A stretch of DNA of 43,940 nucleotides, taken from positions 1-43,940 of the forward strand of contig JAHEYC010000021.1 in the NCBI GenBank assembly GCA_023251775.1, written 5' to 3'. The notes beneath the pieces are model-generated. The model did no database searches. It was not told where the DNA came from and saw nothing but the letters and a program-made list of their open reading frames with translations. The position numbers were made by a program, and so were the translations under genes. This document shows, piece after piece, positions 595 to 38,443 of the stretch. The stretch is from Sphingobacteriaceae bacterium. Its GTDB lineage: Bacteria; Bacteroidota; Bacteroidia; B-17B0; Aurantibacillaceae. Position 1 is the stretch's first letter. Every line of letters begins with the position of its first letter.

Positions 595-624
595 AGCCAC
601 GAATTACACGAATTTCACTAATCT
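595..624 (+). repeat. Left terminal inverted repeat of the GxxExxY element
   Basis: This pairs with 1180-1209, 29 of 30 positions matching. It is built of three 9-base units beginning CAC (CACGAATTA, CACGAATTT, CACTAATCT). It starts nine bases after the ffh stop. Confidence 0.85.
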
Positions 625-686
625 AGACGCACAATTACATAAGTTATATAAAAGGAGTTAAGAATTTCACTAAACTAAACGCCTAA

Positions 687-1115
687 GTGGAAAATCATGA
701 GGAAATATTTACTGTAAATGAAGACATTGGTCTTTATGGAGTGGATAATTTAATTTATAGAGAGGAAGTCTATTCGTTTATTGCGTGTTGTTTTGAAGTA
801 CACAAAACTTTGGGTAAAGGGTTTTTGGAAGCGGTTTATAAAGATGCCCTTTGTTATGAGCTAAAACAAAAGAATATTCCTTATGAAAGGGAAAAGAAAT
901 TTGAGATCGAATATAAGGATATTGTTCTTCCACATTATTATTTTTGCGATCTTATGATCTATGGTAAAATAATTGTGGAGATCAAGGCGCAAGAAGATAT
1001 TATAAATTCCAGCTATAAACAATTAATAAATTACCTTGCTGCCTCAAATACAAAATTAGGACTGCTTGTAAACTTTGGGGAAGAGAGTTTAAAATTTAAG
1101 CGTGTGGTTCTTTAA
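687..1115 (+). CDS. GxxExxY family protein (PD-(D/E)XK nuclease fold)
   Basis: A 142-residue protein. The family signature G-x-x-E-x-x-Y is GFLEAVY at residues 45-51. An Asp at 88 followed by the pair E98-I-K100 fits the catalytic core of PD-(D/E)XK nucleases, and YKQLINYL follows at 110-117. This matches the GxxExxY family, whose members are known to belong to the PD-(D/E)XK superfamily; the cellular role of the family is not established. The start is GTG, the first codon after an in-frame stop at 684-686, and no in-frame ATG is nearby; it sits directly behind the inner left repeat box. The gene is the only cargo between the nested inverted repeats at 595-624 and 1180-1209. Activity on those repeats is my inference. 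Confidence 0.85.
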   Translation: MENHEEIFTVNEDIGLYGVDNLIYREEVYSFIACCFEVHKTLGKGFLEAVYKDALCYELKQKNIPYEREKKFEIEYKDIVLPHYYFCDLMIYGKIIVEIKAQEDIINSSYKQLINYLAASNTKLGLLVNFGEESLKFKRVVL

Positions 1116-1163
1116 TGCAGTTAGATCTATATACACAGATTAGTGAAATTAGAAATAAAAATA

Positions 1164-1171
1164 TATATTTG
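1164..1171 (+). promoter_or_regulatory. Possible -7 box (TATATTTG) for folD inside the element's right arm
   Basis: TATATTTG matches the Bacteroidota -7 consensus TAnnTTTG and lies 54 bases before the folD start. No TTG is found at the expected distance upstream, so only half of a promoter is visible. Confidence 0.3.
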
Positions 1172-1179
1172 TTACACAC

Positions 1180-1209
1180 AGATTAGTGAAATTAGTGTAA
1201 TTCGTGGCT
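1180..1209 (-). repeat. Right terminal inverted repeat of the GxxExxY element
   Basis: The reverse complement of this segment matches 595-624 with one mismatch. A further copy of its box AGATTAGTGAAATT lies 42 bases inward at 1138-1151. Confidence 0.85.
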
Positions 1210-16434: not shown

Positions 16435-16462
16435 AACCTAATCAGTATTTTTAAATTGTAGA

Positions 16463-19400
16463 ATGTTAAAAACAAAACAAATGAAAAAAGTAATGAAATT
16501 AAAAATGATCGCTGTTGCGTTCGCAAGTTTATTAGTGAGCAGCACATTTGGTCAAACTCAAAAAGTGATCGGTGATTCACTAGCAGGCTTTGAAGAAGCG
16601 GCTGCTAAAAAAGCTGCTCTATCGGAAGGATTTTACGGAAGTGAATTTCCTGTTCGTATGGAAGCTTTAAAGAGAAATTATATTATCGCTAAATACGGAT
16701 TGAAAGTAGGTAAAACATCTGCTTTTACTGCACCTAAAAATTACGGTAAAACTGCAGCTCCGCAATGTAATAACGAAGATTTTGAAGCATCTGTAGCGGC
16801 AGCAATAACTACAAGTAATCAGATCGCAGGTTGGACAGTTGAAGGCGGTACAAATACAAACCCAAACAACTCTTGTAACTTATTAGGTTGTTGTCCAAAT
16901 GCACCAAATCAAGGTGCTTTGATCACAGCTCCTGTAACAGGTTACGTTGATCCTGTTGTTGGCGCACAATATCCTATTTTTTCGGTATTTGGTACCGCTA
17001 ATAATAATGGTATTGGTGTTAACCCACAAATTGGTTTACCTGCCATGTATGGTAATAATTTTATCCGATTGAATAATGCTACTTCTAATTTTAGTATGGA
17101 GAAATTAACAAAAACATTCTTAGTTACTCCAAATAATGCTTTATTCCAATTTGCATTCATCTCTGTATTTTATCCGGGTCACGGTTGTTGTGATGCAGGT
17201 GCATTCCAAATTAAATTAACTAACGCTAGTACAAACTCAGTATTAACTTGTCCTGCGTTCTCGGTATCAGCACCAAGTTCACAATGTACAGGCACAACTC
17301 CGGTTACATATTATATTGGAGGTACAAATAACGTTAACACACCTTCAAACTTTAGTCCTATTTATAATAAATGGTCGTTAAATACTTTGGATCTTACAGC
17401 TTACATCAACTCAAACATTCAGATCGAGATCATCGCTTCTGATTGTACCGGTGGAGCTCACTATGGTTATGTATATTTTGATGCACAGTGTAGCCCAATG
17501 GTAGTTATTGGAAACAATAGCCAATTCCCTGCAGGCTCACCAAGTATCACCTTGCCAACTTGCGGTGCAAGTGGTGCAACTATCACTTTACCAAATGGTC
17601 TAGGTCCATATTCATGGAATGGTCCGGGAGTACCGGGTAACTATACAGTTCCATCATTTACTAATCAAACTTACATTACTACGATCTCTGGAACATTGAA
17701 TGCGATCATGAATCCTCCGGGAGCATGTGCACCAATTATTCGTTTGATCACAGTAACAATAACTCCTGCACCAAACTTAAACTTAACACCGATGCAGCCA
17801 ACGTGTTCTAATACGGTGGCCAGTTTAACGGGAACACTCACGGTGGGGGCCACACCAATGACGGTGATCCATTCCGGTCCAACCGGAACTGTTCCGGTTA
17901 ACGTTACAGGAAACGCATTTACGTCCCCCGGAGGAACGGTCACGACTTTAGCACCTGGTATTCATACCATAAGTATCATTGATGGTATAGGTTGTAATAT
18001 TTCAAAAACAGTACAAATAAATCCACCGTTAGCTTTACCAAACTTTACCGTTGGTTCACCTGGTGCAGATTATACATTAACGTGTTTGAATACACCAATT
18101 ACAATGACCACAAGTAATCCCGGATTAACTTATATGTGGACAAGTCCAAGCGGAACAGCTTCCGGAAACTTTGTTAACGTAGCTGTACCGGGTAACTGGC
18201 AAGTAGTAGGTGTAAATCCTGTATCAGGATGTAGCATCTCGGTTAACTTCACTATCTCACAAAATTTAACTTCACCAACGGTTGTTATTACACCAACTGT
18301 AAGTAACATTACGTGTGCAGGTGGATCAGGATGTTTTACTTTAACAAGTAATTTAGGTCCGAATGTTACAACAGATTGGCTTCAGATATCCGGTTCAAAT
18401 ACAGTAAATGTTGGTATCCCACAAGGAACAATAAACATTTTCTGTGCAGGACAACCGGGAACATATTGGGGTTGTTCAACCAATAACTTAACGGGTTGTA
18501 TTTCGTGTAAATCAGTACAGGTAACAGCCTCTGTTGGCGTACCGGTATTTACGATAACAAGCCCAACCAACTTTACCATAGGTTGCGCCAGTACAAGTAT
18601 CACCAGTATGCAAGTAACAACGGTAATTACCTCACCAATAGCAAATGCTCCGTGTCAGTATACTTTTGTTCCACCTGCTACAACGGGAACACCAACAACC
18701 TTTACTGTAAACCCTAACCAAAACGGTATCACCGTTCCGGGCACATGGGTAGTGTATGTAAAAGACTTAACTAATAACTGTATCTCAAGTCAATCAATTA
18801 GTATCATACAAAATACTATTGCACCAAATGTTGACTTCATACAGCCATTAAGTTTATTAACGTGTAGAGATGCAAGTATGGTATTGCAAGGTATCAGCAG
18901 TAACAGTAATACAACTATTACTTGGACCGTACCGGCCATTCCATCTAACTCGGTAAATCCAACACCGAATCACACGGTAACGATCAACCCTGCGGTAACG
19001 AGTTCTTCAGCCAACTTAACTTCTATTGGAACATTTACGGTAGGCGCAGTGGATATCAATAATCAATGTCGTTCAACAAAAACAGTACAGATCATCCAAG
19101 ACATAAGATTACCTAAGTTCACTATTACAGCGTTAACTAACTCGGTGATCAATTGTATCAATATGGACGTGGTAATAGTACCGGTAGTTACACCAACCTT
19201 AGCAGTGGCTTTAGTACCAACATATGTATGGTATCCACCGGTAGGCGGCGGAGTAGCAGGTACACAGTTCAATACTACAGCAGCAGGTACGCATACAGCA
19301 ATTTCAACTTCGGTTGTAAATGGTTGTACATACTCGGCAGTGTATTCAGTAGCGAGCGATCTTACACCTCCTGCAGTTGATTTCACTCCTGTGTATACGT

Positions 19401-20176
19401 TGGATTGTGGTACAAACCAAGCAACATTAGTAGTGGTTGTATCACCTACAGCAAACTTAAAATACTATTGGGATATATTCCCTGCAGGTGTGTTCATCAC
19501 TGATAGAACCAAATCGATAATTCAAGGAACTCAACCTGGTGAGTACGGTGTAACAGTAACAAATACGTTGAACGGTTGTAAAACAACAGGTGTTTACGAA
19601 GTAGTTCAAGGCGCTTTAAATACTGATTTCATCCCAAGTACACAATCAGGATATTCACCATTGTTTGTGAGCTTCAATAATACAAGTTCATCATCAGCGG
19701 GTACAGGAAGTATGATAGGAACTTGGAGTTATGGAAATGGAGGAGTATTAACCAATACCTATAATGCAAGTGGTACATCGAGTATCATACCAAATACTAC
19801 TTATACTGCAGCAGGAACTTACAGTGTGTTATTAAATGTAACAAAAGGAACCTGTAAAGGAACCAAGATCAAGATCATCACTGTAGAGGTACCAAGTAAG
19901 CTGGAAGTACCAAACGTGTTCACACCAAATGGTGATAAAGTAAATGATGTGTTCCGTTTGATCGCAGCAAGTTTAAATGAGATCAATGCATCTATCTTTG
20001 ATCGTTGGGGAAATAAAGTATACGAAGTTGAAAGCGGAACCGGAAATATTGGATGGGATGGTAAGAACATGTTCGGTAAGGAATGTCCTTCAGGAACATA
20101 CTTCTATATGATCAAAGCCACCGGTAAAGATGGTCAAGAATACGACCTAAAAGGTAACGTTACATTGTTCAGATAA
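16463..20176 (+). CDS. Giant T9SS type B surface adhesin-like protein (paralog 1)
   Basis: A 1237-residue secreted protein. The signal peptide (about 1-31) ends before QTQK. The N-terminal head (about 95-350) is a cysteine-containing beta domain with PGHGCCDAGAF. Then come several Ig/SprB-like repeats, one with the SprB-repeat pattern LAPGIHTISIIDGIGC, a PKD-like domain (YSPLFVSF...TYTAAGTYSVLL), and at 1147-1237 the gliding-motility-associated type B sorting domain (VPNVFTPNGD, IFDRWGNKVY, GTYFYMI). It should cross the outer membrane by T9SS and act at the cell surface; adhesion or gliding is inferred from the family. An alternative start is Met7. Its 3' 1.6 kb is identical to that of the next paralog. 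Confidence 0.9.
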   Translation: MLKTKQMKKVMKLKMIAVAFASLLVSSTFGQTQKVIGDSLAGFEEAAAKKAALSEGFYGSEFPVRMEALKRNYIIAKYGLKVGKTSAFTAPKNYGKTAAPQCNNEDFEASVAAAITTSNQIAGWTVEGGTNTNPNNSCNLLGCCPNAPNQGALITAPVTGYVDPVVGAQYPIFSVFGTANNNGIGVNPQIGLPAMYGNNFIRLNNATSNFSMEKLTKTFLVTPNNALFQFAFISVFYPGHGCCDAGAFQIKLTNASTNSVLTCPAFSVSAPSSQCTGTTPVTYYIGGTNNVNTPSNFSPIYNKWSLNTLDLTAYINSNIQIEIIASDCTGGAHYGYVYFDAQCSPMVVIGNNSQFPAGSPSITLPTCGASGATITLPNGLGPYSWNGPGVPGNYTVPSFTNQTYITTISGTLNAIMNPPGACAPIIRLITVTITPAPNLNLTPMQPTCSNTVASLTGTLTVGATPMTVIHSGPTGTVPVNVTGNAFTSPGGTVTTLAPGIHTISIIDGIGCNISKTVQINPPLALPNFTVGSPGADYTLTCLNTPITMTTSNPGLTYMWTSPSGTASGNFVNVAVPGNWQVVGVNPVSGCSISVNFTISQNLTSPTVVITPTVSNITCAGGSGCFTLTSNLGPNVTTDWLQISGSNTVNVGIPQGTINIFCAGQPGTYWGCSTNNLTGCISCKSVQVTASVGVPVFTITSPTNFTIGCASTSITSMQVTTVITSPIANAPCQYTFVPPATTGTPTTFTVNPNQNGITVPGTWVVYVKDLTNNCISSQSISIIQNTIAPNVDFIQPLSLLTCRDASMVLQGISSNSNTTITWTVPAIPSNSVNPTPNHTVTINPAVTSSSANLTSIGTFTVGAVDINNQCRSTKTVQIIQDIRLPKFTITALTNSVINCINMDVVIVPVVTPTLAVALVPTYVWYPPVGGGVAGTQFNTTAAGTHTAISTSVVNGCTYSAVYSVASDLTPPAVDFTPVYTLDCGTNQATLVVVVSPTANLKYYWDIFPAGVFITDRTKSIIQGTQPGEYGVTVTNTLNGCKTTGVYEVVQGALNTDFIPSTQSGYSPLFVSFNNTSSSSAGTGSMIGTWSYGNGGVLTNTYNASGTSSIIPNTTYTAAGTYSVLLNVTKGTCKGTKIKIITVEVPSKLEVPNVFTPNGDKVNDVFRLIAASLNEINASIFDRWGNKVYEVESGTGNIGWDGKNMFGKECPSGTYFYMIKATGKDGQEYDLKGNVTLFR

Positions 20177-20179
20177 TAA
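18555..20179 (+). repeat. 1,625-bp segment identical to 22720-24344
   Basis: From 18555, one base after the mismatch at 18554/22719, to a few bases after the stop, the two adhesin genes read the same in every stretch I compared, including all synonymous positions. It codes for the last repeats, the PKD-like domain and the sorting domain. Confidence 0.9.
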
Positions 20180-20200
20180 AAAGAATAGCATATCATAAAG

Positions 20201-20232
20201 ATCCCTCGAGTAAACCTCGGGGGATTTTTTTT
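20201..20232 (+). terminator. Rho-independent terminator of adhesin 1
   Basis: The stem ATCCCTCGAG / CTCGGGGGAT (one wobble pair) with a four- to five-base loop is followed by eight T. It lies 24 bases after the stop. Confidence 0.85.
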
Positions 20233-20286
20233 GCTAATAGTAGAAGGGGTGAGATAAAAAAGTTGGAGATAAACCTGTTTTTTTAT

Positions 20287-20400
20287 GCCACAGATCACAC
20301 AAATTCACACAGATTTCATTCACAGATTAAAACATGAACGCATTATATTAAATAAAAAAATCTGCGACACAAATCTGCGAGAATTTGCGTAATCTGTGGC
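20287..20400. repeat. Palindromic repeat element, GCCACAGAT subfamily
   Basis: A 114-base imperfect palindrome that begins GCCACAGATCACACAAATT and ends with AATCTGTGGC, its terminal 9-10 bases fully complementary. The arms consist of CAC(A/G)AAT- and CACAGATT-type units at 9-10 base spacing. It resembles the ends of the GxxExxY element but is a distinct subfamily, and it carries no gene. It sits between the two adhesin paralogs. The rest of this 448-base gap (20405-20575) shows nothing I recognise. Confidence 0.7.
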
Positions 20401-20575
20401 AAGACATGGCTTTCTCCCACTATTGATTATGGCCCATAGAAATCCTTGCTAAGACTTTATCCCCGCCGGCCATACGGTAAACTTTATTTTCACAACAGCC
20501 TGTATTCTGTTAAAAAGGTTTCGTTTCCATAGAAATAAGTGTTAAAAAGATGTAGAAATTAACAAATATTGCACT

Positions 20576-20593
20576 TTGGCATGGTACTTGATG
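20576..20593 (+). promoter_or_regulatory. Sigma-54-like -24/-12 promoter of the second adhesin
   Basis: TTGGCATGGTACTTGATG aligns base for base with the element at 16417 (three differences). The expected start is near 20602, 23 bases before the ATG. Confidence 0.6.
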
Positions 20594-20624
20594 AATAGCA
20601 GAAAAACAATACAGTTATTGTAGA

Positions 20625-23600
20625 ATGTTAAAAACAAAACAAATGAAAAAAGTAATGAAATTAAAAATGATCGCCCTAGTGTTCGCAAGCTTATTAGTGA
20701 GCAGCACGTTTGGTCAAACTCAAAAAATGATCGGGGATTCTTTAGTAGGATTCGATGAAAATGCTGCTAAAAAAGCCACCTTATCGGAAGGTTTCTTTGG
20801 AAACGAGTTCCCTGTGCATATGGCGAAATTAAAAAGAGAATATATTAACGCTAAGTTTGGCTTAAAAGTAACTAGGCCATCGATGTGGAAAACGCCACTT
20901 AACATGGCTAAAACTGCGGCTCCGCAATGTAACAATGAAGACTTTGAAGCATCTGCAGCAGGTCCAATTACTACAAACAATCAGATCACGGGTTGGTTGA
21001 TCGAGAGTGGAATAAACCAATTTCCAAACAACTCCTGTAATCTTGGAGGCTGTTGCCCTAGTACAACACAGAATTCAGAGTTGATCTCTGCTCCTGTAAC
21101 AGGTTATATTGATCCTGTTGTTGGTGCTCAATACCCACTTTATTCGGTATTTGGTACATCAAACAATAATGGTATCGGTGTTAACCCGCAATTAGGTTTA
21201 CCTGCGATGTATGGAACAAACTTCATCCGTTTAAATGATGCGATTACAGGTGATTATAGTATGGAGAAATTAACTAAATCATTCTTAGTTACTCCAAGCA
21301 ATGCTTTATTCCAATTTGCATTCATCTCGGTATTTTATCCCGGTCACGGTTGTTGTGATGCAGGTGCATTCCAAATTAAGTTAACTAACTTAACTACCAA
21401 CTCGGTATTAACTTGTCCTGCGTTCTCGGTATCAGCACCAAGTTCACAGTGTACAGGTACAACTCCGGTTCAATATTATATCGGCGGTACAAACAATCCT
21501 AATACACCTTCTAACTTTAGCCCTATCTACAATAAGTGGAAACTACAAACATTAGATCTTACATCTTACATCACTCAAAACATTCAGATCGAGATCATCG
21601 CTTCTGATTGTACAGCGGGTGGTCACTACGGTTATGTATATTTTGATGCACAATGTAGCCCAATGGTAATTATTGGGAACAATAGCAATTACCCTGCAGG
21701 AACACCAAGTATCACATTACCAACTTGCGGTGCGAATGGTGCAACTATTACTTTACCAAATGGTCTAGGTCCATATTCATGGAATGGTCCGGGTGTACCG
21801 GGTGGCTATACAGTTCCATCATACACCAACCAAACTTATATCACCCCGATCTCGGGAACATTGAACGCTATCATGAATCCTCCGGGAGCATGTGCGCCAA
21901 TTATTCGTTTGATCACAGTGAGTATCACTCCTGCACCAAATTTAAATCTTACACCGATGCAGCCAACGTGTTCTAATACGGTGGCTAGTTTAACGGGAAC
22001 ACTCACGGTTGGGGCCACGCCAATGACGGTGATACATGCCGGACCAACAGGAACAGTACCAACTAACGTCACGGGAAATAGCTTTACGTCCCCCGGGGGA
22101 ACGGTCACGACCTTGGCACCTGGTATTCATACCATAAGTATCATTGATGGTATAGGTTGTAACATTACAAAAACAATACAAATAAATCCACCATTAGCTT
22201 TACCAAACTTTAGTGTTGGATCACCTGGTGCAGATTATACATTAACCTGTTTGAATACACCAATCACAATGACCACAAGTAATCCCGGATTAACGTATAT
22301 GTGGACAAGTCCAAGTGGAACGGCTAGTGGAAACTTTGTGAACGTAGCAGTGCCGGGTAACTGGCAAGTAGTAGGTGTAAATCCTGTATCAGGATGTAGC
22401 ATCTCGGTTAACTTTACTATCTCACAAAACTTAACTTCACCAACTATTGTAGTTACACCAACTATCAATAACATTACATGTGCAGGTGGATCAGGATGTT
22501 TTACTGTAACAAGTAACTTAGGTCCTAACGTTACAACAAACTGGTTCCAAGTATCAGGATCAAATACAGTTTATGTTGGTATCCCACAAGGAACGATCAA
22601 TACATTCTGCGCAGGATCACCTGGTGTATATTGGGCAGAATCGGTTAACAACTTAACCGGTTGCAAATCTACTAAGAGTGTACAAGTAACAGCTTCAGTT
22701 GGAGTACCGGTATTTACGGTAACAAGCCCAACCAACTTTACCATAGGTTGCGCCAGTACAAGTATCACCAGTATGCAAGTAACAACGGTAATTACCTCAC
22801 CAATAGCAAATGCTCCGTGTCAGTATACTTTTGTTCCACCTGCTACAACGGGAACACCAACAACCTTTACTGTAAACCCTAACCAAAACGGTATCACCGT
22901 TCCGGGCACATGGGTAGTGTATGTAAAAGACTTAACTAATAACTGTATCTCAAGTCAATCAATTAGTATCATACAAAATACTATTGCACCAAATGTTGAC
23001 TTCATACAGCCATTAAGTTTATTAACGTGTAGAGATGCAAGTATGGTATTGCAAGGTATCAGCAGTAACAGTAATACAACTATTACTTGGACCGTACCGG
23101 CCATTCCATCTAACTCGGTAAATCCAACACCGAATCACACGGTAACGATCAACCCTGCGGTAACGAGTTCTTCAGCCAACTTAACTTCTATTGGAACATT
23201 TACGGTAGGCGCAGTGGATATCAATAATCAATGTCGTTCAACAAAAACAGTACAGATCATCCAAGACATAAGATTACCTAAGTTCACTATTACAGCGTTA
23301 ACTAACTCGGTGATCAATTGTATCAATATGGACGTGGTAATAGTACCGGTAGTTACACCAACCTTAGCAGTGGCTTTAGTACCAACATATGTATGGTATC
23401 CACCGGTAGGCGGCGGAGTAGCAGGTACACAGTTCAATACTACAGCAGCAGGTACGCATACAGCAATTTCAACTTCGGTTGTAAATGGTTGTACATACTC
23501 GGCAGTGTATTCAGTAGCGAGCGATCTTACACCTCCTGCAGTTGATTTCACTCCTGTGTATACGTTGGATTGTGGTACAAACCAAGCAACATTAGTAGTG

Positions 23601-24341
23601 GTTGTATCACCTACAGCAAACTTAAAATACTATTGGGATATATTCCCTGCAGGTGTGTTCATCACTGATAGAACCAAATCGATAATTCAAGGAACTCAAC
23701 CTGGTGAGTACGGTGTAACAGTAACAAATACGTTGAACGGTTGTAAAACAACAGGTGTTTACGAAGTAGTTCAAGGCGCTTTAAATACTGATTTCATCCC
23801 AAGTACACAATCAGGATATTCACCATTGTTTGTGAGCTTCAATAATACAAGTTCATCATCAGCGGGTACAGGAAGTATGATAGGAACTTGGAGTTATGGA
23901 AATGGAGGAGTATTAACCAATACCTATAATGCAAGTGGTACATCGAGTATCATACCAAATACTACTTATACTGCAGCAGGAACTTACAGTGTGTTATTAA
24001 ATGTAACAAAAGGAACCTGTAAAGGAACCAAGATCAAGATCATCACTGTAGAGGTACCAAGTAAGCTGGAAGTACCAAACGTGTTCACACCAAATGGTGA
24101 TAAAGTAAATGATGTGTTCCGTTTGATCGCAGCAAGTTTAAATGAGATCAATGCATCTATCTTTGATCGTTGGGGAAATAAAGTATACGAAGTTGAAAGC
24201 GGAACCGGAAATATTGGATGGGATGGTAAGAACATGTTCGGTAAGGAATGTCCTTCAGGAACATACTTCTATATGATCAAAGCCACCGGTAAAGATGGTC
24301 AAGAATACGACCTAAAAGGTAACGTTACATTGTTCAGATAA
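20625..24341 (+). CDS. Giant T9SS type B surface adhesin-like protein (paralog 2)
   Basis: A 1238-residue paralog of the protein at 16463 with the same layout: signal peptide, head domain with PGHGCCDAGAF, Ig/SprB-like repeats, PKD-like domain, and type B sorting domain at the end (FDRWGNKVYE). The head and first repeats differ at many residues and synonymous sites (for example around residues 90-120 and 610-640), whereas everything after the SPTNFTIGC motif near residue 700 is identical at both protein and DNA level. The mosaic shows recent gene conversion or partial duplication. It has its own sigma-54-like promoter and terminator, so it forms a separate unit. Confidence 0.9.
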   Translation: MLKTKQMKKVMKLKMIALVFASLLVSSTFGQTQKMIGDSLVGFDENAAKKATLSEGFFGNEFPVHMAKLKREYINAKFGLKVTRPSMWKTPLNMAKTAAPQCNNEDFEASAAGPITTNNQITGWLIESGINQFPNNSCNLGGCCPSTTQNSELISAPVTGYIDPVVGAQYPLYSVFGTSNNNGIGVNPQLGLPAMYGTNFIRLNDAITGDYSMEKLTKSFLVTPSNALFQFAFISVFYPGHGCCDAGAFQIKLTNLTTNSVLTCPAFSVSAPSSQCTGTTPVQYYIGGTNNPNTPSNFSPIYNKWKLQTLDLTSYITQNIQIEIIASDCTAGGHYGYVYFDAQCSPMVIIGNNSNYPAGTPSITLPTCGANGATITLPNGLGPYSWNGPGVPGGYTVPSYTNQTYITPISGTLNAIMNPPGACAPIIRLITVSITPAPNLNLTPMQPTCSNTVASLTGTLTVGATPMTVIHAGPTGTVPTNVTGNSFTSPGGTVTTLAPGIHTISIIDGIGCNITKTIQINPPLALPNFSVGSPGADYTLTCLNTPITMTTSNPGLTYMWTSPSGTASGNFVNVAVPGNWQVVGVNPVSGCSISVNFTISQNLTSPTIVVTPTINNITCAGGSGCFTVTSNLGPNVTTNWFQVSGSNTVYVGIPQGTINTFCAGSPGVYWAESVNNLTGCKSTKSVQVTASVGVPVFTVTSPTNFTIGCASTSITSMQVTTVITSPIANAPCQYTFVPPATTGTPTTFTVNPNQNGITVPGTWVVYVKDLTNNCISSQSISIIQNTIAPNVDFIQPLSLLTCRDASMVLQGISSNSNTTITWTVPAIPSNSVNPTPNHTVTINPAVTSSSANLTSIGTFTVGAVDINNQCRSTKTVQIIQDIRLPKFTITALTNSVINCINMDVVIVPVVTPTLAVALVPTYVWYPPVGGGVAGTQFNTTAAGTHTAISTSVVNGCTYSAVYSVASDLTPPAVDFTPVYTLDCGTNQATLVVVVSPTANLKYYWDIFPAGVFITDRTKSIIQGTQPGEYGVTVTNTLNGCKTTGVYEVVQGALNTDFIPSTQSGYSPLFVSFNNTSSSSAGTGSMIGTWSYGNGGVLTNTYNASGTSSIIPNTTYTAAGTYSVLLNVTKGTCKGTKIKIITVEVPSKLEVPNVFTPNGDKVNDVFRLIAASLNEINASIFDRWGNKVYEVESGTGNIGWDGKNMFGKECPSGTYFYMIKATGKDGQEYDLKGNVTLFR

Positions 24342-24344
24342 TAA
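22720..24344 (+). repeat. 1,625-bp segment identical to 18555-20179
   Basis: This is the second copy of the shared 3' segment. Divergence resumes immediately after the stop codons, where the two genes have different terminators. Confidence 0.9.
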
Positions 24345-24360
24345 TTTCCTTTTCATAATT

Positions 24361-24394
24361 AAAGTCCCTATCTTAGATGGTAGGGACTTTTTTT
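24361..24394 (+). terminator. Rho-independent terminator of adhesin 2
   Basis: The stem AAAGTCCCTATC / GGTAGGGACTTT (one wobble pair) is followed by a run of T. It lies 20 bases after the stop. Confidence 0.85.
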
Positions 24395-24406
24395 TTAAGA
24401 GAAAAT

Positions 24407-24424
24407 TCGGTTCTTACCTTGAGA
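24407..24424 (+). promoter_or_regulatory. Possible degenerate sigma-54-like promoter of the 24451 operon
   Basis: TCGGTTCTTACCTTGAGA keeps GG and TTGA at the same spacing as the two better elements but has lost GGCAC. The expected start is near 24433, 18 bases before the ATG. No TAnnTTTG box is seen here. Confidence 0.35.
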
Positions 24425-24450
24425 GAACAACAAATTCTAAATAATTCATA

Positions 24451-24909
24451 ATGAAAAAAATACTAATGATCGCTTGTTGTTTAGTTGTAAGCATAAGTAG
24501 TGCGCAACAAGACATCTATCAAAAAGTTAGCGCGTTTTTAAAACAAAATGATCCAACGCTTATCACACAAAGCAAATTGATGGTTATCAATTTTGTTTCT
24601 CCTGATCTAAAGGAGGATAAGAACGATCATAGCACACTTGATAAAACAGCCAAGGTATATGGGAACGCAAAACTAAAAGGCGGTAAAAAAGGTGTTATAT
24701 GTATTGCAGTGGTTGAAGATGCTCAAGCTGAGATAGCATTAAACAAACAAGGCTATAAGAATTTGCTTGTCATCAATAGATCGCAGATCGACAACGTAGA
24801 TACAAAGGGAATTGATAATATCACGTTCAACTCTAACGGAGAAGTAGTGTTCAAGAATCTGGAACAGGGAAAGATCTACGATGCCATAAATCAACTAATA
24901 ACCAGATAA
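24451..24909 (+). CDS. Small secreted protein, possibly thioredoxin-like fold
   Basis: A 152-residue protein with a signal peptide (MKKILMIACCLVVSISSA, cleaved before QQD). I do not recognise a family with certainty. The order of segments (KLMVINFVSPDLKED, a helix, KGVICIAVVED, then a KNLLVINRSQ strand, and ITFNSNGEVVFKNLEQG near the end) resembles redoxin/TlpA-like folds, but no CxxC is present, so it would not be redox-active. It has no T9SS sorting domain and should stay in the periplasm or be released. It is the first gene of an operon with the 24922 adhesin, 12 bases away. A chaperone or accessory role for that protein is speculative. Confidence 0.7.
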   Translation: MKKILMIACCLVVSISSAQQDIYQKVSAFLKQNDPTLITQSKLMVINFVSPDLKEDKNDHSTLDKTAKVYGNAKLKGGKKGVICIAVVEDAQAEIALNKQGYKNLLVINRSQIDNVDTKGIDNITFNSNGEVVFKNLEQGKIYDAINQLITR

Positions 24910-24921
24910 TAATTTTACAAA

Positions 24922-27900
24922 ATGAAAAAAGTATTATTCAGCATTTTTATATTAGTCGCATTTATTAGTAGTAAAGCGCAAAATGATGATTGCATCGACG
25001 CCATTCCATTATGTACAAATCCAAATTTTACATTTAACGCGAATTCTGGTCCGGGCAATGTGATCGATTTTTCAACGTCTTCTACTGTAAGTAATCCGCA
25101 AACAAATCCAAATCCTCCAAACATGGGCTGTTTATTATCGGGCGAATTAAAACCTCAATGGTTGATCTTAACGGTTGGTAATGCAGGAAGTTTAGAATTT
25201 GTATTTGGTGCAAGTGCAAGTGCAAATCCACAAGCAGGTTTTTATGATTGGGCTATGTGGCCTTATACACCTTCTTCATGTGCTCAAATTTTCAATAATA
25301 CCTTAGCGCCTATCCGTTGTAATTGGAATGCCACATCAACCGGAGGAACAGGTATGGCATCAGCGGCAAATATTCCTACGGGAGGAAACCCCGGTAATTA
25401 CGAAGCGCCATTAGCAGTTAATGCTTGTCAGCAATTCGTTATTTGTATCTCAAACTTTAGTGGCGTAAATACCTTAGTAAGTTTTCAGAGCATTGGAACT
25501 GCAAGTTTATCGTGTAATCCAAATTGTAATCCTAGTTATTTTGTTTGTCCGGGTTCAACAATTGCTGTTACACCGGTTAATTTCGCGAATCTCACAAATC
25601 CTACTTTTTCGTTGATCCCCGGACCATTGGTTAATACCACCGGAACTTTTGTTTTAACTCCAAGCGTTACTACACAGTATACAACTTATATCACAGGAAC
25701 AAATTCATCTAACGCAGTGCAAACCATCAGCGCTACTTTAAATGTTACAGTATATCCAAAACCATACACAAATCCGGTTGTGATGAATGCATCGTGTGGT
25801 AATATTGTAACTAATAGCGTTAATTTAAATGTCACATTTAATCCGTCAGGAAGTCCGAATTATACTACTACCTGGAGTCCGATGCCGAGTACGGTCACAA
25901 CGGTCAATAGTGGAACGGCCGCCGGGCTCACGCCTGGGGTCAATAATGTTACTATAACAACGGCCAATGGTTGCACAAATGTGGCAACCTTTACGGTGGC
26001 GCCAATTCCGCAACCTGCCAGTTTTACCATTGTAAATCCAAGTAATGATTATACAATTACCTGTTTGAATACAAATGTACTTTTAACTGCAAGTGTTACC
26101 AATGGTGTACCATTAACTTATATTTGGTTCCCAAGTTGTACGGGTACATTAAGTGGTGCAAGTATGAATTTTACGCAAGCCTGCACAGGGCAAGTTGTTG
26201 GAACAAGTTCAACAGGATGTCAATTCGTGCAAACATTTACTGTGTATCAAAACTTCACTTCACCAACAATTGCAATTACACCAACAGTTCAAAACATAAC
26301 GTGTGCAGGTGGTAGCGGATGTTTTACTCTTACGAGTAATTTAGGACCTAACGTCACAACCAATTGGTTCCAAGTCTCGGGTTCAAATACGGTTTATGTT
26401 GGTGCAGCGCAAGGCACAATAAATATTTTCTGTGCAGGATCACCGGGAGCCTATTGGGGAGAATCGGTAAATAATTTAACGGGTTGCAGGTCTACCAAAT
26501 CTGTTCAGGTTACTGCATCGGTTGGTGTGCCAATATTTACGATCACTAGTCCAACTAATTTTACAATTGGTTGCGCGAGTAAAAGCATCACGAGTATGCA
26601 AGTAACAACGGTGATAACATCACCTGTGCCAAACGTTCCTGTAAATTATACCTTCATGATACCGCCGGTAACGTCAACGCCAACTACATTCACTACCAAT
26701 CCTAATCTCAATAATATTGTTGTGCCGGGGACTTATGTTGTGTATATAAAAGATCTAACCAATAATTGCATCTCTTCTCAATCTATTAGCATCTTACAAA
26801 ATACAATTGCACCGAATATTGATTTCATACAACCGCTAAGTATTTTAAGTTGCAGGGATCCGAGTATGGTATTGAATGGAATAAGCAGTAATCCAAATAC
26901 GCAAATTAGTTGGACAGTTCCTGCTATTCCGTCAAATTCGGTTAATCCTACACCAAATAATACGGTGATGATAAATCCTGCGGTAACTAATTCATCCAAT
27001 AATATCACTGCGGTTGGAATTTATACCGTTGGTGCGGTTGACCAAAATAATATGTGTAGTTCAAGTAAAACAGTACAAATTCTTCAAGATATTCGTTTAC
27101 CAAAATTCACCATCAGTGCCCTTACAAATTCGGTGATCACGTGTAAAAATCCGGATGTTGTTATTGTTCCAATTGTAAGCCCAACATTGGCAGTTGCCTT
27201 AGTTCCAACGTATGTTTGGTATCCGCCGTTTGGTGGAGGAGTTGCCGGTACTCAATTCAATTCAACTGCTGCAGGCACTCATACATCCATTTCAACTTCG
27301 GTTGTAAATGGTTGTACAACTTCAGCAACATATGCTGTAGCTATAGACGTTACGCCGCCTGCTATCAGCGCTGCAAATCCGTTCACTTTAGATTGTAATG
27401 TAAATCCAACAGTGAGTTTAATGCCAACTATTACAGGAACTGTTACAGGATTTACGTATTCGTGGACCGTTCCGCCTGGTGCGCTTACGTCTAACTTAAC
27501 ATCTTCTTTATTAACCACAAATACGACCGGTTTATATCGTGTGCTTGTAACAAATTCTGTAAATGGTTGCGCTTCGCAAGAATCATATTCGGTAGTTAAT
27601 GGTGCATTAACTGCTAATTTTGTTCCAAGTACGTCAAATGGATTTGCACCTCTTTCAGTATTTTTTACAAATACCAGCGCAACTAGTACAGGAGCAACAA
27701 GTATCATTTGTATTTGGAGTTATGGAAATGGCGTAGCATCACCAACTATTTTAAATACCATAAGTCCGTCAACAACGTATACCGCCGCCGGAACATATAG
27801 TGTTGTATTGATCGCCAGAAAAGGTTCATGTATTGATAGCTCTATTCATGTGATCAGAGTTGAGATCCCAAGTAAGATGCAAGTACCAAATGTATTCACT

Positions 27901-28152
27901 CCTAATAATGATAAGGTTAATGATGTGTTCCGCTTGATAGCATCAAGTCTTAAGGAGATAAATGTGACCATATTTGATCGTTGGGGTAATAAAGTATATG
28001 AGCTCACCAGTGATACAGGTAATTTTGGATGGGATGGTAAGAATCAATATGGTAAGGAGTGTGCGGCCGGGACCTATTTTTACATCATTAAGGCTACAGG
28101 AAATGACGGGACCGAATTTGATCAAAAAGGCAACGTAAGTTTATTTAGATAA
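24922..28152 (+). CDS. Giant T9SS type B surface protein (third of the cluster)
   Basis: A 1076-residue protein with a signal peptide of about 19 residues (ending SSKAQ). The head (20-190, beginning DDCIDAIPLCTNP, with YDWAMWPY) is unlike that of the first two adhesins and resembles the PPC-like N-terminal domains common in T9SS proteins. After about residue 280 the stalk is homologous to theirs: SprB-like repeat, GSGCFTLTSNLGPNVTT, SPTNFTIGCAS, DFIQPLSIL, and ALTNSVITC modules. A PKD-like domain and the type B sorting domain (VPNVFTPNNDKVNDVF, FDRWGNKVYE) follow. DNA-level divergence from the first two is considerable. It is co-transcribed with the small secreted protein upstream. Confidence 0.9.
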   Translation: MKKVLFSIFILVAFISSKAQNDDCIDAIPLCTNPNFTFNANSGPGNVIDFSTSSTVSNPQTNPNPPNMGCLLSGELKPQWLILTVGNAGSLEFVFGASASANPQAGFYDWAMWPYTPSSCAQIFNNTLAPIRCNWNATSTGGTGMASAANIPTGGNPGNYEAPLAVNACQQFVICISNFSGVNTLVSFQSIGTASLSCNPNCNPSYFVCPGSTIAVTPVNFANLTNPTFSLIPGPLVNTTGTFVLTPSVTTQYTTYITGTNSSNAVQTISATLNVTVYPKPYTNPVVMNASCGNIVTNSVNLNVTFNPSGSPNYTTTWSPMPSTVTTVNSGTAAGLTPGVNNVTITTANGCTNVATFTVAPIPQPASFTIVNPSNDYTITCLNTNVLLTASVTNGVPLTYIWFPSCTGTLSGASMNFTQACTGQVVGTSSTGCQFVQTFTVYQNFTSPTIAITPTVQNITCAGGSGCFTLTSNLGPNVTTNWFQVSGSNTVYVGAAQGTINIFCAGSPGAYWGESVNNLTGCRSTKSVQVTASVGVPIFTITSPTNFTIGCASKSITSMQVTTVITSPVPNVPVNYTFMIPPVTSTPTTFTTNPNLNNIVVPGTYVVYIKDLTNNCISSQSISILQNTIAPNIDFIQPLSILSCRDPSMVLNGISSNPNTQISWTVPAIPSNSVNPTPNNTVMINPAVTNSSNNITAVGIYTVGAVDQNNMCSSSKTVQILQDIRLPKFTISALTNSVITCKNPDVVIVPIVSPTLAVALVPTYVWYPPFGGGVAGTQFNSTAAGTHTSISTSVVNGCTTSATYAVAIDVTPPAISAANPFTLDCNVNPTVSLMPTITGTVTGFTYSWTVPPGALTSNLTSSLLTTNTTGLYRVLVTNSVNGCASQESYSVVNGALTANFVPSTSNGFAPLSVFFTNTSATSTGATSIICIWSYGNGVASPTILNTISPSTTYTAAGTYSVVLIARKGSCIDSSIHVIRVEIPSKMQVPNVFTPNNDKVNDVFRLIASSLKEINVTIFDRWGNKVYELTSDTGNFGWDGKNQYGKECAAGTYFYIIKATGNDGTEFDQKGNVSLFR

Positions 28153-28160
28153 ATACCCAA

Positions 28161-28196
28161 AAAAACCCGCTAAAACCAAGGCGGGTTTTTTGTTTT
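28161..28196 (+). terminator. Rho-independent terminator of the 24451-28152 operon
   Basis: The stem AAAACCCGC / GCGGGTTTT with a ten-base loop is followed by TTGTTTT. It lies nine bases after the stop. Confidence 0.85.
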
Positions 28197-28203
28197 AACA
28201 CAG

Positions 28204-28230
28204 TTTGGTTCGGTTTTTGTCTTATCTTTG
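28204..28230 (+). promoter_or_regulatory. Promoter of the fourth adhesin (two readings)
   Basis: Two promoter types overlap. TTTG at 28204 and TATCTTTG at 28223-28230 fit the housekeeping consensus, though with a short 15-base gap. TTGGTTCGGTTTTTGTCT at 28205-28222 keeps the GG-N8-TTG spacing of the sigma-54-like elements at 16417 and 20576. Either would start transcription just before the ATG at 28244. Confidence 0.5.
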
Positions 28231-28243
28231 TTATACCTATCAT

Positions 28244-31200
28244 ATGAAAAAAATACTATCAATTTTAACGCTATGTTTTGTGTTTGTTATCGCAACAAAT
28301 GCACAAACAAGTTGTGCCACTGCACTACCATTTTGTGCAGGTGGAACATCAGGAGGAACTTTTCCTGCAACAGTAAATGGCCCTACTGCCGAAAACGGCC
28401 CAAACTACGGATGCTTAGGCACACAACCAAATCCGGCTTGGTATTATTTACAAATAAGCACCTCGGGTAATCTTGATATTTTAATTCAGGGTACTGCCAA
28501 CCAAGATGTGGATTTTATTTGCTGGGGACCTTTTGCCAGCTTAGCAGGTTGTTGTAATTCATTAACTGCAGCAAACATTGTTGATTGTAGCTATTCTTCC
28601 AGTCCAACCGAAACATGTCAAATAGTTGGCGCGATCGCCGGGCAATTTTATATGGTACTTATTACAAATTTCTCCAACGTTCAACAAGATATTTTATTTA
28701 CACAAATTGCCGGAACAGGTTCTACAAATTGTGGTATCGTTTCAACCAGCACCATGATATGTGCAGGAAGTGTTGCAACACTTTCCATTACCAATAATTC
28801 AAATCTTGCGAATCCAACGTTCTCTATGAATCCCGGTGCTATTGTATCAGCTGTACCATTTTTTACGGTCGCGCCAAGTGTCACTACAACTTATACCTTG
28901 TATGTGAGTGGAACCAATACCATCAACAGTACTCAAGTTACACAAACTGCTGTGGCAACTGTAACTATTTTACCTAAACCCGTCATTAATCCATTGGTGA
29001 TGAATAGCACATGTGCCAGCGCGAGTAATTCCGTCAATTTAAATATCACATTTATGCCAAGTGGAAGTCCAAACTATACGGTCACGTGGGCTCCCCCTCC
29101 AAGTAATTTTACACCGGTAAATAGTGGTACGGCATCAGGGCTTACTCCGGGCACGCAAAATGTAACTGTTACAACAGGAAGTTGTAGTACAGTAAAAAGT
29201 TTTACGGTTGGGCCAATTCAAATTCCGGCATCGTTCACGGTATTTAATGCATCAAACGATTATACGGTAACGTGTATCAATCCAAATGTTATTTTAACTA
29301 CAAGTATCACCAACGGAAATCCTTTAACGTATGTGTGGTTCCCAAGTTGTTCAGGAACTGTTGCAGGTACAAGCATGAGTTTTACACAACCGTGTACAGG
29401 ACAAGTAGTAGGAACGAGTGCCACGGGATGTACCATGACACGAACTTTCCAGGTGTTCTCAAACTTTACTTCACCAACAGTTGTCATATCTCCAACGGTT
29501 GTATCCATCACGTGTATTCCGGGTAGTGGTTGTTTTACACTTACAAGTAATTTAGGACCAAACGTAACAACACAATGGTATCAAGTTGCCGGAACAAATA
29601 GTGTACCTATTGGTCCTGCCCAAGGAACCATAAATATTTTATGTCCCGGTAATCCCGGCGATTACGTTGGTTGTTCAACAAACAATTTAACCGGTTGTGT
29701 TTCTTGTAAATCAGTTCAAGTAACCGCATCGGTTGGTGTACCTGCTTTCACTGTAACGAGTTCTACTAATTTCACCATTGGTTGTGGAACCACAAGTATT
29801 ACTACCATTCAGGTAAGTACGGTTGTAACATCGCCTGTTCCCAATACGCCGGTAAATTATGCGTATGTTCCGCCACCAGCAACAGCAACACCGGTATACA
29901 CAACTAATCCTAATTTAAATAATATCACTATACCGGGAACTTACGTGGTTTATATAAAAGATCTTACCAATAACTGCGTCTCTTCTCAGTCGGTGAGTAT
30001 CATACAAAACACCATTGCACCAAATGTTGACTTCATACAACCTTTAAGTTTATTAACGTGTAGAGAGCCAAGCATGGTATTGAACGGAATAAGCAGTAAT
30101 TTAAATACAACTATTACTTGGACAGTTCCTGCGATCCCATCTAATTCGGTTAACCCAACTCCAAATACAACGGTAACAATTGATCCTGCGGTCACAAACT
30201 CGAGTAATAATATTACCGCAGTTGGAATTTATACGGTTGGGGCAGTTGATAATAATAATCAATGTCGATCAACAAAAACAGTACAAATTCTACAAGATAT
30301 TCGTTTACCAAAATTCACTATTAGCGCACTTACAAATTCGGTGATCACGTGTAAAAATCCGGATGTAGTTATTGTACCAATTGTAACGCCGTCGTTGGCA
30401 GTTGCTTTGGTGCCAACGTATGTTTGGTTTCCACCGGTTGGACCGGGAGTTCCAGGAACGCAATTCAATTCAACTGCGGCTGGAACACATACTTCTATTT
30501 CAACGTCGGTTGTGAATGGTTGTACATATTCAGCAGTTTACGCTGTAGCCATTGATGTTACGCCGCCTGCTATCAGTGCAACAATTCCATTTACATTAGA
30601 TTGTTCAAGTAATCCTACTGTTTTAATAACGCCTGTGATAACTCCAACGTCTGGTGCATACACATATACATGGACAGCTCCTGCAGGCGTATTGATATCT
30701 AATCCTTCAGGAAAGAATTTATTGGCGAATCTAACGGGTTTATATAAACTCGCTCTTACAAATACAATTAACGGTTGCAGTTCATCTGAATCGTACTCGG
30801 TAGTTAACGGTGTCTTAGTTGCTAATTTTGTTGCTAATCCTTCAAACGGATTTGCGCCACTTTCAGTATTCTTTACAAATACAAGTGCAACGAGTACCGG
30901 TGCCACTAGTATCATCTGTGTTTGGAGTTTTGGAAATGGAGTTTCATCAACTACAGTTTTAAATACGGTTTCACCTGCAACAACATATACCGCTGCCGGA
31001 ACCTACAGTGTTGTATTGATCGCCCGAAAAGGCACCTGTGTTGATAGTTCAATTCAGATCATCAATGTAGAGATCCCAAGTAAGATGCAAATACCAAACG
31101 TGTTCACGCCTAATAATGATAAAGTAAACGATGTGTTCCGTTTGATCGCTTCTAACTTAAAAGAAGTAACTGCTATCATTTATGATCGTTGGGGAAATAA

Positions 31201-31360
31201 GGTTTACGAAGTAACCAGCGAAACAGGGAACTTCGCCTGGGATGGTAAAAATCAGTACGGCAAAGAATGCGCTGAGGGAACATATTTCTACATTATTAAA
31301 GCCATAGGAAAAGATGGTCAGGAATATGATCAAAAGGGTAACGTAAGTCTGTTCAGGTAA
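28244..31360 (+). CDS. Giant T9SS type B surface protein (fourth of the cluster)
   Basis: A 1038-residue protein. The ATG at 28244 begins a clean signal peptide (MKKILSILTLCFVFVIATNAQ); the open frame extends 13 codons further, but that extension is occupied by the promoter. The head (about 22-175, beginning TSCATALPFCAGG, with NQDVDFICWGPF and GQFYMVLITNFS) is a PPC-like domain of the same general kind as in the 24922 protein. The stalk carries the same modules as the other three, followed by a PKD-like domain and a type B sorting domain (IPNVFTPNNDKVNDVF, YDRWGNKVYE). It forms its own unit between two strong terminators. Confidence 0.9.
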   Translation: MKKILSILTLCFVFVIATNAQTSCATALPFCAGGTSGGTFPATVNGPTAENGPNYGCLGTQPNPAWYYLQISTSGNLDILIQGTANQDVDFICWGPFASLAGCCNSLTAANIVDCSYSSSPTETCQIVGAIAGQFYMVLITNFSNVQQDILFTQIAGTGSTNCGIVSTSTMICAGSVATLSITNNSNLANPTFSMNPGAIVSAVPFFTVAPSVTTTYTLYVSGTNTINSTQVTQTAVATVTILPKPVINPLVMNSTCASASNSVNLNITFMPSGSPNYTVTWAPPPSNFTPVNSGTASGLTPGTQNVTVTTGSCSTVKSFTVGPIQIPASFTVFNASNDYTVTCINPNVILTTSITNGNPLTYVWFPSCSGTVAGTSMSFTQPCTGQVVGTSATGCTMTRTFQVFSNFTSPTVVISPTVVSITCIPGSGCFTLTSNLGPNVTTQWYQVAGTNSVPIGPAQGTINILCPGNPGDYVGCSTNNLTGCVSCKSVQVTASVGVPAFTVTSSTNFTIGCGTTSITTIQVSTVVTSPVPNTPVNYAYVPPPATATPVYTTNPNLNNITIPGTYVVYIKDLTNNCVSSQSVSIIQNTIAPNVDFIQPLSLLTCREPSMVLNGISSNLNTTITWTVPAIPSNSVNPTPNTTVTIDPAVTNSSNNITAVGIYTVGAVDNNNQCRSTKTVQILQDIRLPKFTISALTNSVITCKNPDVVIVPIVTPSLAVALVPTYVWFPPVGPGVPGTQFNSTAAGTHTSISTSVVNGCTYSAVYAVAIDVTPPAISATIPFTLDCSSNPTVLITPVITPTSGAYTYTWTAPAGVLISNPSGKNLLANLTGLYKLALTNTINGCSSSESYSVVNGVLVANFVANPSNGFAPLSVFFTNTSATSTGATSIICVWSFGNGVSSTTVLNTVSPATTYTAAGTYSVVLIARKGTCVDSSIQIINVEIPSKMQIPNVFTPNNDKVNDVFRLIASNLKEVTAIIYDRWGNKVYEVTSETGNFAWDGKNQYGKECAEGTYFYIIKAIGKDGQEYDQKGNVSLFR

Positions 31361-35351: not shown

Positions 35352-35499
35352 AGCCACGAATTTCACTAATTAACACGAATCTGTGTTTATATAAATTGCA
35401 CCAATCTATGTGTAAACCAGATTTGATCTATAAACACAGTTTAGTGAAATATAGTTGCCCTTTACACCCAGATTAGTGAAAATTCGTGTAATTGGTGGC
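35352..35499. repeat. Gene-less palindromic element related to the GxxExxY element (copy C)
   Basis: A 148-base imperfect palindrome from AGCCACGAATTTCACTAATT to GTGGC. Its right arm matches the right arm of the GxxExxY element almost throughout: TCTATA-ACACAG, a TTAGTGAAAT box at 35441, and CAGATTAGTGAAAA at 35469. One deletion of about ten bases separates the two. It fills the gap between a + strand stop (35311) and the stop of the gene at 35527. No gene inside. Confidence 0.75.
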
Positions 35500-35526
35500 A
35501 AGATAGCTCAAGGCATTGTGGGCTAT

Positions 35527-36584: not shown

Positions 36585-36622
36585 CACTCCCCAATGAAAG
36601 GGCTTCGGCCTGATCAATGGAA

Positions 36623-36758
36623 AAGCGAATTAGCTCTCCCGATAATTATCGGGATGGTAGAGCGAAACAGAGTAGTGACTTAATCACTAAAAGCGAATTA
36701 GCTCTCCCGATAATTATCGGGATGGTAGAGCGAAACAGAGTAGTGACTTAATCACTAA
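36623..36758 (+). repeat. Two exact 68-bp tandem copies of a tRNA-derived sequence with a palindrome in the D-loop
   Basis: Units 36623-36690 and 36691-36758 are identical. Each reads GCGAATTAGCTC, then the perfect 18-base palindrome TCCCGATAATTATCGGGA (36637-36654, 36705-36722), then TGGTAGAGCG. The flanking parts match the D-arm of the intact tRNA-Gly that follows at 36762, whose D-loop has AGT at the palindrome's place. The second half (TAGTGACTTAATCACTA) forms a short hairpin but not a normal anticodon arm, and no T-arm is present. These are therefore not functional tRNAs by ordinary rules. Confidence 0.8.
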
Positions 36759-38175: not shown

Positions 38176-38318
38176 AGCCACGAATTTCACTAATTATCAC
38201 GAATCTGTGTTTAATTAGATTTCACAAATCTAAACGCAAGCTCTATTCTATTAACACATATAGATTAGTGAAATTAAATAACACATATAGATCGGTGCAA
38301 ACTCGTGAAATTCGTGGC
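38176..38318. repeat. Gene-less palindromic element related to the GxxExxY element (copy D)
   Basis: A 143-base imperfect palindrome from AGCCACGAATTTCAC to GAAATTCGTGGC. Its left arm contains TTTCACAAATCTAAACGC, matching the inner left box of the GxxExxY element (TTTCACTAAACTAAACGC at 666-683), which is directly followed there by the gene. Its right arm has the AGATTAGTGAAATT box at 38262 and a weaker one at 38289. It looks like the two ends of the GxxExxY element joined without the gene. A short hairpin CTCGGCGAAGCCGAG follows at 38331. Nothing else is seen in this 306-base gap. Confidence 0.75.
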
Positions 38319-38443
38319 AAAATACATCACCTCGGCGAAGCCGAGTCATTTAAAATTCTTCAATACTTATTTTCATGAAAGTGTTTTTTGATCGGAGCAT
38401 TCTTTATATTTACGCTTAAAGTTTTTGCGGCCATAAAATAAAA

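Follow-up and report, generated by a model that had tools for sequence, protein, structure and literature searches.

GxxExxY genes lie between mirrored arrays of a seven-base word that recur in gene-less copies

GxxExxY genes lie between two arms that are arrays of a 7-base word, mostly C-R-C-N-R-A-K, mirrored across the gene. This gene-between-arms arrangement is general. In the genome analysed here the same arms recur many times without the gene, which suggests a repeat-enzyme partnership similar to that of REP sequences and RAYTs, with an unrelated enzyme. On balance, the analysis leans toward gene and arms forming one unit, the protein being a nuclease specialised on the repeats of its own arms, which it would bind, cut and mobilise.

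The gene-bearing element between ffh and folD

The window, i.e. the whole stretch of 43,940 nt that was analysed (contig JAHEYC010000021.1, positions 1–43,940), is part of a host genome of 3.6 Mb, termed G000. Its features are listed in Table 1. The outer arms of the element between ffh and folD match at 29 of 30 bases, and when the pair is extended to positions 590–624 and 1180–1214 the match is 91% over 35 positions. The GxxExxY gene is the sole open reading frame of at least 90 aa between the arms, and profile searches assign it to TIGR04256 (138.3 bits, cut-off 35) and PF13366 (126.5 bits, cut-off 22). A preliminary description of this DNA had read the gene as the single cargo of nested two-box inverted ends, and had pointed to two places further along the window where this nested arrangement recurs without the gene; the arms, the inner boxes, the single open reading frame and both copies bear this out. 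It had overlooked one more gene-less element, whose units are of a different type.

Table 1. Positions in the window of the gene-bearing element and of gene-less copies
Feature	Position	Strand	Evidence
Entire gene-bearing element, between ffh and folD	595–1209	+	Inverted repeat I1; matching arms; element present or absent at the orthologous site within the genus
Left outer arm, units CACGAAT, CACGAAT, CACTAAT	595–624	+	Inverted repeat
Left inner box AATTTCACTAAACT	663–676	+	Motif match
GxxExxY protein, predicted PD-(D/E)XK fold, GTG start, 142 aa	687–1115	+	TIGR04256; PF13366; AlphaFold2 model
Right inner box	1137–1150	-	Motif match; inverted repeat
Right outer arm	1180–1209	-	Inverted repeat
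Gene-less copy, arm type of the window gene	35352–35500		Repeat match; not seen at the corresponding position of G265, the nearest relative
Gene-less copy, arm type of the window gene	38176–38319		Repeat match
Gene-less CACAGAT-type element, cognate of L004 (G000:C111)	20286–20401 (approx.)		84% identity with the L004 arms when these are joined

Elsewhere in the window, positions 2120–2198 hold a perfect 25-base inverted repeat with the word CCCTTCGACTACGCTCAGGGTGAC, which is REP-like and unrelated to the GxxExxY arms. Four related very long genes are found at positions 16455–31360, with inter-copy blocks of up to 100% identity (families D1–D11), and a 68-base perfect tandem duplication at positions 36621–36756 immediately precedes a tRNA gene.

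Gene-less copies and the four unit types of the genome

The host genome was searched with the terminal box AGCCACGAATTNCAC, as had been proposed in the preliminary description. With at most two mismatches the box is found 85 times in forward and 84 times in reverse orientation, compared with 12 and 4 times for the reversed pattern; with at most one mismatch the numbers are 73 and 66, compared with 0 and 0. From these counts, 70–80 palindromes of the window type are therefore estimated to be present in the genome.

The genome has four GxxExxY genes. Inverted arms surround all four, and each gene displays different units: CACAGAG (L001), CACGAAT/CACTAAT (L002, the window gene), CACGGAG (L003), and CACAGAT and kin (L004). 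Gene-less cognates were found for every one of the four. For the types other than that of the window gene, 11 places were read; seven have paired arms of the right type (L228, L233 and L238 for L001; L236 for L003; L221–L223 for L004) and four have a single or partial arm. No gene-less cognate of another GxxExxY gene, L305, is found in its own genome (G172) at E ≤ 1. L305 has CTATGAT arms and carries an extra direct copy of its upstream arm just 3′ of the gene.

The gene-less copies of the window type are intergenic, 28 of 29 being located between open reading frames of at least 120 aa (3.2 expected). They are positioned after T-runs and have an interior of their own in common, with a mean column identity of 72% in 16 copies. 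No target-site duplication is seen in 30 elements (mean 1.97, with mispaired flanks at 1.68; p = 0.12 by permutation).

Predicted fold and active site

An AlphaFold2 model made from 52 sequences has a mean pLDDT of 85.5, with residues 1–20 unreliable, and displays two helices, five strands, a helix and two strands. Among known structures, 4ic1 matches the model best (E = 4.8e-4 and TMq 0.55 in Foldseek). A second structural comparison gives 4ic1 a Z of 9.7 over 100 residues with an rmsd of 4.2, and the next entry 7.5. By its title 4ic1 is SSO0001, which is called a Cas4 exonuclease in the available text of PMC3466216. The top structural matches include Cas4, RecE, AddAB and Hjc; among the families listed by VIA-align none stands above Cas4, and the best sequence relative in the PDB has an E-value of 0.94.

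H39, E48, D88, E98, K100, Q112 and Y116 are invariant or at least 90% conserved in sets of 26 and 52 sequences. The arrangement D...ExK...QxxxY with an upstream His corresponds to the motif set of RecB/Cas4-like proteins. No conserved cysteine is found among the invariant or near-invariant columns of the same two sets. The Fe-S cluster of the Cas4 protein Pcal_0546 has four conserved cysteines, according to the available text of PMC4176176, a feature of Cas4 that GxxExxY does not share. GxxExxY thus resembles Cas4/RecB-like proteins in its modelled fold and catalytic set and is a predicted PD-(D/E)XK nuclease. The earlier placement in the PD-(D/E)XK superfamily agrees with the alpha-beta core fold of the model, the top structural matches and residues D88, E98 and K100.

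Gene and arms in other genomes

An array was defined as at least two tandem C-R-C-N-R-A-K units with a spacer of 1–5. The 121 loci that were scanned comprise 43 of the window's class and 78 named loci spanning 16 phyla. Loci from the genome search are best-scoring matches and not a random draw; 80 of 552 relatives were kept as named loci, and two of these were left out for short flanks. An array is present upstream in 90 loci and mirrored downstream in 87; it is on both sides in 79, on either side in 98 and on neither side in 23. Arrays in the opposite orientation occur in 21 upstream and 24 downstream flanks. Shuffled flanks give an array on either side in three of the 121 loci, and other open reading frames of the same named loci, 18 in all, in four. 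GxxExxY genes usually lacking flanking repeats, a condition that the preliminary description would have taken as refutation, are thus not what is seen (arrays in 98 of 121 loci). Start-to-start spacing of the units is 8 (88 cases), 9 (157), 10 (92), 11 (35) or 12 (3).

It should be noted that the word was derived from loci that are partly included in the 121-locus count. In 29 loci outside the word choice (nine of which are also within the 121) arrays are on both sides in 15 and on either side in 18, and a reversed unit is seen in one. This lower frequency (18 of 29) is partly due to other words in some loci. ACAGGAT, ACTGATT, CTATGAT, CACATAG and ACGAAT are such words in part of the array-less loci.

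Each of the 16 phyla has at least one named locus with an array. Named loci outside Bacteroidota (n = 40) have arrays on both sides in 33, on one side in five and on neither in two; the corresponding numbers for Bacteroidota (n = 38) are 15, 10 and 13. When upstream flanks were locally aligned with reverse-complemented downstream flanks, 50 of the 78 named loci had an arm-to-arm match above that of mispaired flanks at p ≤ 0.05, and 28 at p ≤ 0.01; the test is conservative, because mispaired flanks also contain the motif. GxxExxY is matched in eight of 72,556 plasmid records, and a tblastn search with one GxxExxY protein gave no match in 50,697 phage records.

In a sample of 247 genomes of the window's class, 159 have a GxxExxY gene. 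Five or more boxes are found in 23 of these 159 genomes and in none of the 88 without the gene (Fisher p = 3.7e-5, uncorrected for relatedness), where the highest count is four. The repeats are not equally common in genomes that lack the gene, which in the preliminary description would have counted as refutation. Twelve other genomes are rich in boxes (at least 11; some of these genomes are 68–86% complete). A same-arm, CACGAAT-type gene is found in three of them, G209, G216 and G131, with 45 of 49 matches examined (three weak ones and a second match in an open reading frame already used were left out). G026 has a kindred gene with CGC[GT]AAT arms. G081, which belongs to the window's genus, has 55 boxes and a lone gene with CACATAG arms, and the element is absent at its ffh–folD site; gene loss with surviving repeats is therefore possible.

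Unit type and protein phylogeny

The last base of the unit was mapped on a tree of 139 proteins, which is built on few columns and leaves 63 of 136 inner branches open. Labels were given to 100 proteins (G in 85, T in 15), and 39 with no clear label were dropped. The last base changes four times, compared with 14.2 times when shuffled (0 of 500 shuffles as low). Within Bacteroidota, where unnamed loci of the window's class were counted as members, it changes four times vs. 13.6, and the second base (CAC vs. CGC) nine times vs. 19.0, again with 0 of 500 shuffles as low in each case.

The less common words display the same pattern. The CTATGAT-armed proteins L301, L305 and L309 are 68%–78% identical and come from three families by tool codes. 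The CACATAG-armed proteins L348, L363 and L370 are 74%–86% identical, and a fourth one with these arms is 47%–51% identical. ACGAAT-armed proteins are mostly each other's nearest, and the proteins most closely related to that of the window have GCCAC..ATT-like arms. Unit type follows protein clade and is thus co-inherited with the protein; this is expected from recognition and also from mere co-inheritance. Between paralogs of one genome, identity does not exceed 69%, with a median of 41 (33 pairs from nine genomes, with part of their genes). An exception is the pair L363/L370, which is 86% identical, CACATAG-armed in both members and located in the same genome.

Inheritance at the ffh–folD site

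The genus set consists of 40 genomes, of which 27 ffh–folD sites were read and sorted by eye; 12 were not read and one (L092) was unreadable. The gene is intact at eight sites and broken at two (G255 and G269). Arms or half-arms without the gene are found at four sites (G247, G270, G259 and G266), and 13 have no clear arm, including that of the closest relative, G265. Presence or absence of the element thus differs between species at this site. The gene is common by descent at 10 of the 27 sites, so hopping is not seen; it looks inherited and lost several times. No clean empty site was found among the relatives, which are too diverged, the nearest being 80%–85% identical at the site; of the elements compared, G265 has neither. 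In G260 (L091) the orthologous element has a left arm that has grown into several tandem arm copies.

The ffh–folD gene is under purifying selection. In 28 ortholog pairs (G255 and G269 not included) dN is 0.07–0.26; dS is saturated in 22 pairs, and the ratio is 0.13 or less in the other six. Together with the site survey, this shows a gene that is kept by selection over the genus and is often missing.

Other gene families with repeats of their own

There are four Y1_Tnp genes in G000, on C25, C131 and C94 (L295–L297) and C33 (L294). L295–L297 each go with their own set of strong, GC-rich inverted repeats (CCCCGAAGGGG, GGCTCCGTAGGAGCC and GGTCGGGACTTAAGTCCCGACC), and L294 has a weak one. A two-unit array within 500 bases was found for none of the four.

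TIGR02436 genes encode four-helix-bundle proteins, which are taken here to be 23S rRNA intervening-sequence or Avd-like proteins; they are present in 79 of 99 genomes of the class. Five such genes of G000 have mirrored arms with other words (p ≤ 0.05 in four, 0.055 in the fifth). In the wider set of TIGR02436 loci (L035–L039 and L244–L273), 28 of 35 have inverted arms at p ≤ 0.05. The arm units are tandem words of 7–8 bases (AGTTCGA, GTATTGA, GATGTCA, AAAGTT and others), mostly specific to the locus, and a CRCNRAK array is found in none of the 35. Thus three families in one genome, GxxExxY, Y1 and four-helix-bundle, each tend to have their own repeats.

Possible explanations

If gene and arms form one unit, the GxxExxY protein would bind its own arm units and would nick or trim DNA there, most simply on single-stranded or extruded arms. 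Arm-bounded DNA, mostly gene-less, would be copied into intergenic places beside T-runs, and the insertion step may be carried out by host repair or replication. The gene itself would rarely move and would persist or disappear along lineages, in the manner reported for RAYTs and REPINs.

Alternatively, an ordinary transposase of Y1/HUH or DDE type may move the palindromes, with GxxExxY as a passenger between two copies. The four Y1_Tnp genes of the genome, and the nine of 12 other box-rich genomes that show no same-arm gene, are in accordance with this; however, no Y1 gene has an array nearby, three have strong repeats of their own, and a passenger would hardly be one family in 16 phyla with arms tracking its own tree. 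On the evidence of the Y1 genes and of this breadth, a transposase is an unlikely agent. It is similarly improbable that the arms are an operator for self-regulation or belong to a restriction-like or addiction module, with gene-less copies as decayed elements. Such a role would fit arms close around a gene that is under purifying selection and missing at many sites, and palindromes can outnumber or outlast a gene. The estimated 70–80 gene-less copies of the window type are difficult to explain in this manner, since their number, their shared interior and their unrelated neighbouring open reading frames need copying, not decay alone.

The arms may also act as RNA, in the form of a long transcript hairpin. 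The hairpins predicted for 19 copies are strong (-38.8 to -71.5 kcal/mol), arm pairing is 82.6% vs. 28%–44% for slid partners, and four-helix-bundle genes have analogous arms. In the 16 copies that were aligned (A3), however, pairing is 82.6% vs. 84.8% for shuffled columns and covariation 0.056 vs. 0.074, with 500 of 500 shuffles as high. RNA hairpin function was rejected as the main reading because the arms covary less than shuffled columns, and it is given very little probability. Variable positions pair slightly below shuffled columns, which is perhaps selection against perfect palindromes. The units of the 16 copies are near-invariant on each side and the spacers mismatch, which favours a reading of the word itself. 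At gathering scores, Rfam matched only two tRNAs and none of the repeats in 12 sources including the window. The 23S rRNA intervening sequences form a long hairpin in the transcript; this identity was rejected for the element, as the protein is TIGR04256, the site is ffh–folD, and Rfam gave no rRNA match in the window.

Should the arms of each gene hold its own recognition word, target and function would be testable at once in a large family, common intergenic repeats of many phyla would gain a candidate partner enzyme, and the REPIN/RAYT way of life would have a second, unrelated enzyme. A broader proposal, offered tentatively and with some doubt, is a transposase-independent class of palindrome partnerships, in which a small protein (GxxExxY or, in parallel, a four-helix-bundle protein) would read its own mirrored word in a clade-specific manner and spread gene-less arrays. 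In that case the recognition code of very many uncharacterised nucleases could be read from the 7-base word.

Comparison with known systems

In the open PMC literature (subscription papers and preprints being outside the search) no description of a GxxExxY-arm association was found, nor a study of the function of GxxExxY/PF13366/TIGR04256/PDDEXK_3, nor a mention of six literal repeat words. Similar in form are the TAACTGA heptamers of Beggiatoaceae, cyanobacteria and Bacteroidetes, which are tandem 7-base units in intergenic DNA. In the available text of PMC4679880 and PMC4853749 these are direct repeats, mostly just 5′ of start codons, the main genome having a single inverted case, and no such protein partner is named there; the GxxExxY arms are mirrored. 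TIGR02436 genes are alike in being a small single open reading frame between inverted arms of short tandem units, but the protein is unrelated and the CRCNRAK array is absent. Unlike insertion sequences and MITEs, the present elements have no target-site duplication. The Cas4/RecB nucleases (SSO0001, 4ic1) are similar to GxxExxY in fold and in the D...ExK...QxxxY and His residues. GxxExxY differs from Cas4 in having no conserved cysteines, and its neighbours here are ffh and folD.

There is also a close likeness to REP/REPIN-RAYT systems. According to the available text of PMC3116915 and PMC8049555, RAYTs are single-copy and each is distinct, with its own repeats. As in those systems, every repeat type has an enzyme gene to itself, which lies between copies of that repeat (all four genes here; L363/L370 is an exception), there are many gene-less inverted doublets between genes, and the repeats are also found in genomes without the enzyme. 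The preliminary description had proposed a REP/RAYT-like logic with a different enzyme. This holds in part: the unit recurs in 16 phyla, arms follow protein clade, all four genes have cognates and paralogs are mostly distinct, but the nine box-rich genomes with no same-arm gene do not conform. The systems also differ in that a RAYT is a Y1/HUH transposase, whereas GxxExxY is of the PD-(D/E)XK type, TIGR04256 and PF13366 being its sole matches at E ≤ 0.001, and in that the GxxExxY arms consist of tandem 7-base units.
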